Below, piece by piece: positions 20,490 to 36,990 of a stretch of 44,217 nt of DNA. Origin of the DNA: an uncultured Bacilli bacterium (GTDB taxonomy: Bacteria > Bacillota_I > Bacilli_A > RF39 > UBA660); NCBI GenBank assembly GCA_944350285.1, contig CALVOL010000004.1, forward strand, positions 1 through 44,217, given 5' to 3'. Both the position numbers and the translations under genes were made by a program. Position 1 is the stretch's first letter. Each line of letters starts with the position of its first letter. The notes under the pieces are model-generated. The model saw only the letters and a list, made by a program, of their open reading frames with translations. It ran no database searches and was not told the DNA's origin.

Positions 20490-21794
20490 TTATTTTTTAA
20501 TACAAAATGTTGCATATAATGGTATAGATTTTATGTTATTTTCAAAGCCAAAATTTTTTGTGGAAATTCTTATGGCATATTTTGGTTTATATTTATTCAT
20601 ATAAATATTTAGGCTTTTGCTTCCTATTCGATCGTTTGCTTTTACTTCAATAGGGATGATACCATCATCATTGTATAAAATAAAATCAATTTCTGCAAGA
20701 TTACCTGACTCCCAGTATATTAATGGGATATTATTTGCCACTAATTGGGTTGCTACATAGTTTTCTGTAATAATTCCTTTATACTGCGTGAGATTATCTA
20801 AAATAACATCATTGTATTTTATTTGTAGCATGCTGAGTAATATGCCTGTATCACTTAAATATAATTTAAAATAGTCATCATCTATAAATCCTAATGGGGG
20901 GATTTCTGGTTTTTTTAACAGACAACATTTGTGTACCATTGTGCTAGAAAGTAGCCAATTTAATGCAGTTTCATAATCTCTTTTCCGAGCAACTGATGAT
21001 ATTTTTCCATACTGAAATTTATTGCTTACGTTTCCTAATTGAGATGGAATAGATTTGTAGATAGCTTCGATTTTGCTTGCTTCAAATTTATTTAGAACAT
21101 ACTTATTCATATCATTTAAATAAGAAATAAAAATGTCTTCAATAATGGTTTTATCAAATTTTAAGATATCTTTTTCATTTTTTAACCAATTTTGTATTGC
21201 TTCTGGCATGCCACCTATACACAAATAGATACGATATAAATTCAAAGCTTTTTCATGTAAATAAATATCCATGGCTTTATTTTGGCTATAACATTTTTTG
21301 ATTTCTTCTATTAAGGCATTGCTTCCATTTGCGGTCAAAAATTCTTCAAAATCCATTGGATACATAGTAAGCATTTTAACTTTTCCTACTGGGAAAGATG
21401 AATGTAATCTTTTTAATTTTACGCCTAATAAACTGCCAGCACAAATTATTTTAAATGGTTTTTCATTTTCGTTAAAGTATTTTAAGGCACTTATTAGTTC
21501 TTCACTTTCTTGTATTTCGTCAAAAAAGATAATTGTATTTTCTAAGTCAATATCTTTATCTAAATATATTTTCATTCGATTAAATTTTTCTTCTATATTT
21601 ATATTTTCTTTAAAGATGTTAATAATTTCTGGTTGCTCTAAAAGATTAATATAAATATATTTTTTAAATTCGTTTTTACAAAATTCGTTAATAATATATG
21701 TCTTTCCAATTTGTCTTGCACCTATTATTATTAATGGTTTTTCTAAATTTGTATTTTTCCAGTTTATAAGTTCTTGATATATTTTTCTTTGCAT
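20490..21794 (-). CDS. AAA ATPase with DUF4143 / PD-(D/E)XK-like C-terminus (copy 1)
   Basis: A 434-aa ATP-binding protein of the AAA_14-DUF4143 type. It has Walker A GARQIGKT (25-32), Walker B IIFFDEIQE, and sensor ICAGSLLG. The C-terminal domain has AEIDFILYNDDGIIPIEVKA, a PD-(D/E)XK-like core (D, then E-x-K). Such proteins are widespread and often occur in several divergent copies; no function is established. The gene stands alone. Its promoter (-35 TTGCAT, 17 bp, -10 TATAAT on the minus strand) is directly preceded by three 20-bp direct repeats at a 33-bp period, suggesting dedicated, possibly self-made control. Confidence 0.9.
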   Translation of the reverse strand: MQRKIYQELINWKNTNLEKPLIIIGARQIGKTYIINEFCKNEFKKYIYINLLEQPEIINIFKENINIEEKFNRMKIYLDKDIDLENTIIFFDEIQESEELISALKYFNENEKPFKIICAGSLLGVKLKRLHSSFPVGKVKMLTMYPMDFEEFLTANGSNALIEEIKKCYSQNKAMDIYLHEKALNLYRIYLCIGGMPEAIQNWLKNEKDILKFDKTIIEDIFISYLNDMNKYVLNKFEASKIEAIYKSIPSQLGNVSNKFQYGKISSVARKRDYETALNWLLSSTMVHKCCLLKKPEIPPLGFIDDDYFKLYLSDTGILLSMLQIKYNDVILDNLTQYKGIITENYVATQLVANNIPLIYWESGNLAEIDFILYNDDGIIPIEVKANDRIGSKSLNIYMNKYKPKYAIRISTKNFGFENNIKSIPLYATFCIKK

Positions 21795-21843: not shown

Positions 21844-21848
21844 TTACA

Positions 21849-21934
21849 TTTCACGTTTTTGGCACATATTTTTGCTTTGGGTTTCACATTTTTGGCACAT
21901 AATGCTGTATCAACTTTCACGTTTTTGGCACATA
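21849..21934 (-). repeat. three 20-bp direct repeats, exact 33-bp period (iteron-like)
   Basis: Units lie at 21849-21868, 21882-21901 and 21915-21934. On the minus strand the unit reads TATGTGCCAAAAACGTGAAA; the middle copy differs by one base (T for C). The spacers are 13 bp and differ from one another, so selection acts on the unit and on the period. The 33-bp step is close to three helical turns, placing all units on one face of the DNA. The array lies just upstream of the -35 of the DUF4143 ATPase gene. Confidence 0.92.
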
Positions 21935-22013
21935 GTGTTAGTTTTTCTATAAGTTTTTTGTTAAATTTTTTTAAGATAGTGCTTTTTCTGATTATAGTTT
22001 TGGGGTGTTACTC

Positions 22014-22078: not shown

Positions 22079-22741
22079 ATGAAAAAAATTATGATTGTAG
22101 AAGATGATAAAGTTATTTGTCAAGAACTAGAGGAAATGCTTAATCATGCTGGATATGAAGCGGTTGTTTTACAAGATTTTTCGAAAGCTACTGAAGAAAT
22201 CTTGGCTTCTTCTGTTGATTTAGTGTTACTTGATATTAATATTCCTGTTATTAATGGAGAAGTTTTACTTAAAAGTATTCGAGAGAAGTCAGAGGTTCCT
22301 ATTATTATGGTAACCAGTCGTAATAATGAAACAGATGAAGTATTATCGATGAGTTTTGGAGCAGATGATTATATTACAAAGCCTTATAATCCAAATATTT
22401 TGCTTCTTCGGATTGGGGCTGTACTAAAAAGAGCCGGAAAGAATAATGATGTTACAACTTATAGAAATTTAAATGTAAATGCGAAGAAAGGTGTTTTGAG
22501 TGATGGTGAAAGAGAACTTTGGTTAACGAAGAATGAAATGATAATTTTTCAATTTTTGCTTAATCATCAAGGAAGTATTGTTAGTCGTGATGATTTAATG
22601 ACTGACTTGTGGAATAATGATGAATATATTAATGATAATGCTCTTACAGTAAATATTAGTCGACTTAGAGCAAAGCTTACTGAGTTTGGAATAGAGAATG
22701 CGATTGAAACAAGAAAGGGACAAGGGTATATTTTATTATGA
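22079..22741 (+). CDS. OmpR/PhoB-family response regulator, BceR-like
   Basis: A 220-aa regulator. The receiver domain has the acidic pair ED (8-9), phospho-acceptor D52 (VLLDINIP), Thr in MVTSR and Lys in ITKPY. The winged-helix output domain follows from about 125 (LTKNEMIIFQFLLNH, then NDNALTVNISRLRAKL, RKGQGYIL). It is paired with the intramembrane-sensing kinase downstream through an ATGA start/stop overlap. By analogy with BceRS-type systems it should activate the adjacent ABC transporter when a cell-wall-active peptide is sensed. The ATG is preceded by AAAGGAGTG. Confidence 0.9.
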   Translation: MKKIMIVEDDKVICQELEEMLNHAGYEAVVLQDFSKATEEILASSVDLVLLDINIPVINGEVLLKSIREKSEVPIIMVTSRNNETDEVLSMSFGADDYITKPYNPNILLLRIGAVLKRAGKNNDVTTYRNLNVNAKKGVLSDGERELWLTKNEMIIFQFLLNHQGSIVSRDDLMTDLWNNDEYINDNALTVNISRLRAKLTEFGIENAIETRKGQGYILL

Positions 22742-35611: not shown

Positions 35612-36871
35612 TTAATCTTTTAATGTTCCAATAGATACGACGTATACTCCATCATTACGTTTGTATGAATAATTTGCTCCCGTTAATACTAATAAGAATG
35701 CAGGTTCTCCACATTTTTTCGTATCTACGTGTTCTTTAAATTTTAAAAGATTTTGAGCTGCTTGATCTATAAATCCGGCTCCAAGCTTAATTTCTATTGC
35801 ACCCCAGGTTCCGTTACTGGTTCTTAAAATTGCATCTACTTCAAAATCTTTTTCGTCGCGATAGAAAGTAATACTACCGCCATAACTTCCAGTGTATATT
35901 TTTAAATCACGCATACAAAGGGACTCAAATAGTAAGCCGAAGGTTTTTAAATCATTTATTAAATCATTTGGTTGTATGTCAAGAATTGCAGTAGCAATAG
36001 AAGGGTCTACGAAATATTTTTTTGGCTTTGTTCTAATAGCATATTTACTTCTTAAATTTAGATTTGTGGCTTTTACTTCTTCGATGACAAATAGTTTTTC
36101 TAATGTATTTAAATAATCTATTAGTGTTGGTCTAGAGATGTCATCTTCAAAACTTTTTTTGATATCTTCTTGTAGGGTAGAATTCGATACTTGTGTAGAT
36201 ATGTTTCTAGCAAGGCTTCTTAATACACTTTCCATTTTTTCTGGATTTCTTTCTGTACCGTCTATTTTTTTTACTTCTTCATGTATTAAAGATTTTACAT
36301 ATTCTTTGGCTATTCTAAATTTTCTGTTGGTTGTTATGTTGATAGCTGCTGGCCATCCTCCTCTTACAATAATATTTGCTAAATCTTCTAATGATAATTT
36401 TGATTCTCCAGATATATCTTTTCCGGCTAATATATCTTTAAAAGAGACTTCTCCAGTCGATTCTTTTGACTCATAAAGACTCATCGGACGCATTAAAACT
36501 CTGGCAATTCTTCCAGTTCCACTGTGCATGACTTCGCCTTCTTGGGGTTTGGCTGAACCCGTGAGTAAGTATTGTCCTTTTCGTCCTGTATGGTCTACAT
36601 CTGTTCTGATAGAGTCCCAAACAACAGGGTACATTTGCCATTCATCGAACATTCTAGGCTTTTCACCATTTAAAAATAATGATGGCTTTGTGTTTTTGAT
36701 TTCTTCAAATTCTTCTTTTTGGTCAGGGTTTTGAAATTCTATAACACTTTTTGCATGATGTGCACCAGTGGTTGATTTTCCACACCATTTACATCCTTCA
36801 ATTAGGATTGCACCCATTATTTCCATAAGTTCTTCAATTTCCCTGTCTACAACTCGAGGTAAATATTCCAT
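35612..36871 (-). CDS. AAA ATPase with DUF4143 (copy 2)
   Basis: A 419-aa protein of the AAA_14-DUF4143 type but only distantly like copy 1. It has Walker A GCKWCGKST, Walker B region PRMFDEWQ, sensor LTGSAKP, and RMRPMSLYE-like text (here VLMRPMSLYE). The C-terminal PD-(D/E)XK-like core is FEVDAILRTSNGTWGAIEIK. A biochemical function is not established for the family. The ATG has GGAG upstream. Its promoter on the minus strand (TTGTAA, 17 bp, TATAGA) has its -35 inside the first unit of a 4 x 23-bp repeat array. Confidence 0.9.
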   Translation of the reverse strand: MEYLPRVVDREIEELMEIMGAILIEGCKWCGKSTTGAHHAKSVIEFQNPDQKEEFEEIKNTKPSLFLNGEKPRMFDEWQMYPVVWDSIRTDVDHTGRKGQYLLTGSAKPQEGEVMHSGTGRIARVLMRPMSLYESKESTGEVSFKDILAGKDISGESKLSLEDLANIIVRGGWPAAINITTNRKFRIAKEYVKSLIHEEVKKIDGTERNPEKMESVLRSLARNISTQVSNSTLQEDIKKSFEDDISRPTLIDYLNTLEKLFVIEEVKATNLNLRSKYAIRTKPKKYFVDPSIATAILDIQPNDLINDLKTFGLLFESLCMRDLKIYTGSYGGSITFYRDEKDFEVDAILRTSNGTWGAIEIKLGAGFIDQAAQNLLKFKEHVDTKKCGEPAFLLVLTGANYSYKRNDGVYVVSIGTLKD

Positions 36872-36886
36872 AGTATTGTCTCCATT

Positions 36887-36915
36887 TCTATATTCATATT
36901 AGCACCATTTTACAA
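36887..36915 (-). promoter_or_regulatory. promoter of DUF4143 ATPase copy 2, -35 within a repeat
   Basis: On the minus strand TTGTAA (36915-36910) and TATAGA (36892-36887) are 17 bp apart. The -35 hexamer is part of the promoter-proximal repeat unit, so a protein bound to the array would block or recruit polymerase here. Confidence 0.6.
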
Positions 36916-36990
36916 AAAAAGCAAATTTTATTTTACATTTTGAGCAAATTTTACTTTACAAAAAAAGTAAAAATTGTTTTACAAAAAAAG
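36908..36990. repeat. four direct repeats, exact 23-bp period (iteron-like)
   Basis: Units begin at 36908, 36931, 36954 and 36977, each 23 bp apart. The first reads TTTTACAAAAAAAGCAAA; the second has TTTTG in the A-run; the third has GTAAA at the end; the fourth is cut to 14 bp where it meets the addA terminator. A partial unit (AGCA then ATTTTAC) precedes the first. The A-tract core recalls the repeats of copy 1, but the sequence and period differ. Confidence 0.88.

Follow-up and report, generated by a model that had tools for sequence, protein, structure and literature searches.

The gene for Orc1/Cdc6 lies near the protein's own binding sites, which are origins, and the protein has no nuclease domain. 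Iteron plasmid initiators are encoded beside direct repeats of about 22-23 bp to which they bind, and in autoregulated helix-turn-helix pairs, namely toxin-antitoxin systems and the C proteins of restriction-modification, a protein and its private operator diverge together.

Among the described systems closest to the locus studied here is PDC-S01, a candidate single-gene phage defence of PADLOC and an ATPase fused to a PD-(D/E)XK domain, which the available passages of the source rank as the fourth most common prokaryotic defence; according to the same passages, experimental validation is still pending for most such defence candidates (PMC12988326). Two DUF4143 genes of the window, by which we mean the whole stretch of 44,217 nucleotides analysed, encode proteins that match PADLOC models of PDC-S01 (best E-values 2e-61 and 3e-152). 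The first of these genes (35612-36871, minus strand) encodes a 419-aa AAA_14/DUF4143 protein, and its upstream region is occupied by a direct-repeat array. TRF reported this repeat at 36907-36990 with a period of 23, 3.7 copies and a score of 98, the maximum in the window. The original prediction of four 23-bp units is borne out for the period, except that the fourth unit is incomplete (about 3.7 units in all), and only 36907-36990 of the predicted span 36887-36990 is array, the remainder (36887-36906) being promoter instead. The features of this region are as follows.

36909..36931, minus strand: array unit 1, gene-proximal (sequence and TRF)
36932..36954, minus strand: array unit 2 (sequence and TRF)
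36955..36977, minus strand: array unit 3 (sequence and TRF)
36978..36990, minus strand: array unit 4, partial (sequence and TRF)
36919..36924, minus strand: −35-like TTGCTT within the proximal unit (read from the sequence; weak consensus match)
36896..36901, minus strand: −10-like TAATAT, 17 bp from the −35-like TTGCTT (read from the sequence; weak consensus match)

The partial fourth unit reaches into the terminator of the adjoining helicase gene. A −35 element had been placed within the proximal unit, and TTGCTT (36924-36919, minus strand) does lie there, the −35 and −10 calls being consensus matches only; a −35-like site is likewise found within the array in the orthologues L018, L020 and L021. 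The self-offset score of the array was 29, as compared with a maximum of 15 among 60 dinucleotide shuffles (z about 10). When the genome (a 1.34-Mb assembly of 109 contigs, estimated to be 84% complete) was searched with the two-unit pattern of the array, allowing up to two mismatches, the sole site was this array itself (three overlapping matches), and the reversed-letter control yielded no matches.

The protein encoded downstream of the array has the following features.

35612..36871, minus strand: AAA_14-DUF4143 protein, 419 aa (Pfam, AlphaFold2 and fold matches)
36773..36796, minus strand: Walker A GCKWCGKS, residues 26-33 (G26, K28, G31 and K32 invariant in 66 homologues)
36113..36136, minus strand: residues 246-253, SRPTLIDY, the N-terminal portion of the recognition helix (covariation and model)
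35786..35836, minus strand: PD-(D/E)XK-like motif D346 ... E360-x-K362 (all three residues invariant in 66 homologues)

Both Pfam domains scored well above their cut-offs (PF13173, AAA_14, 46.5 bits against 27; PF13635, DUF4143, 113.8 bits against 28.1), and the AlphaFold2 model (pLDDT 92.4) consists of a STAND-like ATPase (residues about 1-200), a winged helix (210-266) and a putative PD-(D/E)XK-like nuclease domain (about 300-419). Residues D76, E77 and W78 are also invariant, and the protein has the Walker A and B ATPase core of STAND NTPases. The modelled winged helix comprises three helices (210-222, 230-240 and 247-259) and a strand (263-266). The top structural matches of the model were PAB2304 (Z 14.4 over 249 residues) and SSO1545 (Z 13.3), followed by plant NLRs, CED-4 and Apaf-1, and the ATPase plus winged-helix (NOD) arrangement of STAND NTPases is present in the predicted model. 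Foldseek placed Orc1/Cdc6 on origin DNA (2qby) second and had DnaA among its matches. As regards the nuclease fold of the C-terminal domain, modelled within the whole protein, Card1 and Cdn1 are among the Foldseek matches, but the VIA rows mostly span residues 1-331. A sequence search of solved structures with the protein gave no match. The protein aligns to the PDC-S01 model PDLC04790 over residues 1-416 (E 1.9e-61). This very common family of predicted anti-phage ATPase-nucleases is classified by PADLOC as the candidate PDC-S01.

The second DUF4143 gene of the window belongs to a different subfamily and has an array of its own.

20490..21794, minus strand: second DUF4143 gene of the window, a member of the 33-bp subfamily (Pfam)
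21848..21973, minus strand: array of that gene, period 33, TATGTGCCAAAAACGTGAAA plus 13-bp spacers (self-offset score)

The gene at 22079-22741, which is divergent from this second gene, shares the intervening 33-bp array and might be under its control.

The genome contains 14 DUF4143 matches. A direct array was scored at six of these (L002-L007, with L005 weak), at least two other paralogues have an inverted repeat instead (L001, score 15, and L009, score 16, against shuffle maxima of 10), and part of the 14 are truncated or broken. One clade of the 33-bp subfamily (L010, L104, L105 and L122-L128) is without a direct array and has, by eye, an apparent single inverted repeat before the promoter, which in most of its members is ATAACTC...GAGTTAT. 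The expectation that the DUF4143 copies in this genome carry direct arrays holds for six of the 14, and the statement that there is a direct array at every paralogue is too strong, because inverted repeats replace arrays in some.

Using both window proteins as queries against 59 related genomes, we obtained two well-sampled subfamilies, and the upstream regions of their members were taken; a good number of the genomes analysed are incomplete assemblies. An array (score at least 18) was found upstream of 47 of the 49 non-redundant members of the 23-bp subfamily, the period being exactly 23 bp in all 47; one of the two members without an array call showed a weak match, also with a period of 23. 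At the same threshold an array was found in 53 of 72 members of the other subfamily, with a period of 33 bp in 40 of them and of 32 bp in 13. A second survey, in which contigs of named genomes were scanned with the subfamily alignment, favours the 23-bp subfamily because the best 80 matches, corresponding to 80 loci, were retained. These loci span Bacilli, Clostridia, Bacteroidota, Spirochaetes, Fibrobacter, Actinobacteria, one CPR bacterium and several archaeal groups, and among the 79 homologues from these best matches with enough upstream sequence the best period was 23 bp in 77, of which 65 score at least 18; the exceptions are L172, with a period of 24, and L219, in which the period alternates. 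A DUF4143 gene on a Bacteroides ovatus plasmid has three identical 23-bp units. The units diverge strongly between clades and are conserved among orthologues. The period is a property of the subfamily, and the unit sequence is a property of the paralogue. Each paralogue had originally been credited with a period of its own, which is true of the two window genes (23 and 33) but gives way to a period fixed per subfamily (23 or 33/32). At one locus, L046 (G009:C92), three DUF4143 genes of two subfamilies lie within 5 kb, and their arrays differ in both unit and period.

One could ask whether such repeats have arisen by neutral tandem duplication in AT-rich promoters. The window is indeed AT-rich, and the number of units varies between near-identical orthologues: L048 and L049, and likewise L050 and L029, are one whole unit apart, which points to fast gain and loss of array units. 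Only three of 216 control genes from the same genome, however, reached a score of 18, one of them being the divergent neighbour of the other DUF4143 gene, which sees that gene's array. Together with a single exact period in two domains of life and the covariation with the protein described below, this leaves neutral duplication with a negligible probability.

A more serious question is whether the arrays are the sites of a separate host transcription factor that controls the DUF4143 genes, since promoter-proximal direct repeats often serve as sites of an unrelated regulator. The unit varies between paralogues of one genome, yet is kept among orthologues. Furthermore, in the genomes tested the units are essentially confined to their own gene. 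With one mismatch allowed, all 17 matches of one unit in six genomes were inside the array of its own gene (the reversed-letter controls gave 2), and a second unit gave three exact matches in its own array and one two-mismatch match elsewhere; the three units tested were found essentially only at their own gene. This privacy disfavours both a wider regulon and an unrelated regulator. In addition, as shown next, the unit varies along with the DUF4143 protein's own recognition helix, a pattern that a separate regulator could produce only by diversifying in parallel. We consider the involvement of such a host factor to be improbable.

Unit similarity correlates with protein identity in the two subfamilies (r 0.62 and 0.64; none of 2000 permutations reached these values), which bears out the proposed covariation of unit and protein. 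To locate its source, each 8-residue window of the protein was scanned against unit similarity with overall identity removed and with clusters collapsed below 70% identity; the permutations deal with overall identity and near copies by this collapsing and use no explicit tree model. In the 23-bp family (20 clusters) the top window was 246-253 (0 of 1000 max-statistic permutations). The 33-bp unit was treated in halves: the top window was 266-273 for the right one (1 of 1000), and no window of the protein was a significant partner of the left one. In the named set (48 clusters) windows between 241 and 255 took all of the top eight ranks (0 of 1000 permutations). When the cluster threshold was set at 60% (15 and 14 clusters), the same windows still ranked first, at a weaker level (48 and 19 of 1000). 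The covarying segment (residues 243-256), which starts the third helix (247-259) of the modelled winged helix, corresponds to the recognition helix of this domain, which lies between the ATPase and the putative nuclease; the covariation maps to a putative DNA-reading element of the protein itself.

Within this helix, residue 248 follows short words of the unit. Lys occurs with GGA in 13 of 15 cases (6 of 48 for other residues), Asp with CCGAA in five of nine (2 of 54), Pro with TAAA[AG][TC] in six of nine (3 of 54) and Asn with CACA in 6 of 14 (4 of 49); the corresponding p-values are descriptive only, because the word classes were picked after inspection. Residue 248 occurs with the bases that ordinary chemistry predicts, in what is a simple putative code. 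The arrays at nearly all members of the 23-bp subfamily and at most members of the 33-bp subfamily, combined with the covariation, lend support to the idea that each paralogue has a cognate address with which it co-evolves.

We now turn to the function of the arrays. Our preferred interpretation is that the array is probably a private operator, in that each ATPase would bind its own array via the winged helix and regulate its own promoter. According to this hypothesis, each protomer of the DUF4143 protein would use its recognition helix to bind one unit, and adjacent protomers would align at a pitch fixed by the geometry of the protein, 23 bp here and 33 bp in the other subfamily; the period would be invariant while the unit drifts because protein geometry sets the spacing of the protomers. 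The bound assembly, located on or just upstream of the −35 box, would then set the expression of its own gene. The median distance from the end of the array to the start codon is 48 bp, and the −35 position falls inside the array in about 70%, which makes autoregulation likely. There are other members in which array and −35 box directly adjoin, and either repression or activation could therefore result. Because the proteins are predicted defence ATPases, we also propose that the assembly would change in response to nucleotide or to infection, and that this change would alter the expression level or release the protein. The arrays, their fixed periods, the privacy of the units and the covariation with one helix were computed, and from this point on we infer: binding, autoregulation and its sign, and the coupling to ATP and to the nuclease.

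Certain observations count against the operator interpretation. In STAND ATPases of known structure, the winged helix usually packs on the ATPase core and not on DNA. In some subfamilies an inverted repeat, or no recognisable repeat at all, takes the place of the array, and the scan with the left half of the 33-bp unit was empty.

Two-unit arrays were also encountered in phages. When viral contigs were scanned with one unit, a second unit was present 23 bp away in most matches. With a skeleton pattern that left the cores free, 74 stretches were picked up in viral contigs, as compared with none for the reversed pattern. They reduce to 54 distinct stretches, all of which lack a flanking DUF4143 gene and 36 of which have two different cores. 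The following loci were retained.

L285-L321, L323, L324, L335, L339, L343-L346, L350-L355, L367, L368: gene-free two-unit phage arrays (viral contigs; a few may be chance)

A few matches, such as L322, L336 and L363, were rejected as arrays because they are apparently fortuitous (L336 is a repeated gene start, and L322 and L363 are palindromic runs). Several of the array-bearing contigs are identified as phages by terminase, portal, DNA polymerase and thymidylate synthase genes, and the arrays are either intergenic or lie within the first part of a coding sequence. PF13635 was absent from the 50 viral records checked, many of which are fragments. At one site, sampled irrespective of the array, an in-frame two-unit insertion directly after the stop of a 117-aa upstream gene is present in 22 of 80 homologous phages and absent in 58 (L435-L514); the tree requires at least seven gains or losses, a number that recombination could inflate. 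A second specificity class accounts for two further gene-free arrays in viral contigs. In L285 and L294, around a 19-mer match, the arrays are composite: units of the TGCACA type come first, those of the CTCGGA type come after them, and the 23-bp phase seems to be kept between the two. The strict two-unit TGCACA pattern and the unit of the 36907-36990 array had no viral matches, and neither GenBank phages nor PLSDB plasmids contained a full match to the phage-type two-unit array. The 66 viral matches of a 17-mer of the 33-bp family were rejected, since they appear to be fortuitous matches in coding sequence and no second unit follows at a distance of 33 bp.

The reading that we favour is that the phage arrays may be decoys. 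Decoys fit self-activation or sequestration better, because a decoy would raise the level of a simple autorepressor. A broader hypothesis, which we put forward tentatively and consider somewhat doubtful as a whole, is that PDC-S01 is a self-addressed defence in which the winged helix would read a private array by an amino-acid code, and that phages would counter it with gene-free two-unit decoys, often bearing two addresses, which are gained and lost in an arms race over the operator sequence.

The phage copies also bear on another scenario, in which the array is mainly a platform for assembly or storage: the ATPase-nuclease would be held inactive on the array and freed upon infection, any effect on transcription being secondary. 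Short gene-free arrays make sense for a phage if the bound protein is inactive, the three to eight strictly spaced units per array exceed the needs of simple repression, and the fold is that of oligomerising STAND ATPases. The location of the arrays, however, at or beside the −35 box and with a median of 48 bp left to the start codon, is where a regulator is expected. This scenario is compatible with the operator explanation; as the main role of the arrays we regard it as unlikely, though less so than the other alternatives.

If the private-operator interpretation is correct, a private DNA site for each copy would give PDC-S01 a ligand, a binding assay and a testable specificity code, and if a single residue follows the base that is read, it would provide a handle for studies of DNA recognition. 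That the pitch of 23 bp (or 33 bp) is invariant across bacteria and archaea suggests that the way in which the protein assembles on DNA is conserved, and the gene-free phage arrays suggest that the interaction matters to phages, which would make them a natural experiment on defence and counter-defence.

A final alternative arises from the resemblance to replication and mobile elements: the arrays might be iteron- or origin-like sites, or transposition ends, of a selfish element made up of gene and array. An AAA+/winged-helix gene with direct repeats of 22-23 bp next to it does recall an iteron arrangement, the fold matches include DnaA and Orc1/Cdc6 bound to origin DNA, and the genes are multicopy and occur on plasmids as well. 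Against this, one small genome has many different arrays scattered through it, always at the gene's own promoter, and no boundary repeat or partner gene was identified. A comparison through the neighbouring helicase gene provided no usable empty site, the locus being common to G016 only. We judge this alternative to be very improbable, marginally more so than a host factor.

How, then, does the putative private operator compare with known systems? The proteins of the window match the PDC-S01 models, and the available passages of the literature on this system describe no promoter arrays, winged-helix DNA recognition or phage array copies (PMC12988326). Our literature search, outside which fall most subscription journals and bioRxiv, found nothing relevant on promoter repeats or DNA decoys. 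The archaeal STAND ATPases SSO1545 (2fna) and PAB2304 (2qen) are like the DUF4143 protein over the ATPase and the winged helix, and their alignments stop near residue 298, before its putative nuclease domain. Orc1/Cdc6 on origin recognition boxes likewise places an AAA+ domain and a winged helix on repeated sites (2qby), but here there are many paralogues, each with its own unit. The iteron-like trait, 23-bp direct repeats beside the gene of the putative binding protein, is present here; unlike iteron initiators, the DUF4143 proteins occur as many paralogues per genome, again each with its own unit. Finally, in contrast to the autoregulated helix-turn-helix pairs, the binder in the case of DUF4143 would be an ATPase-nuclease, acting on long arrays whose period is fixed by the subfamily.
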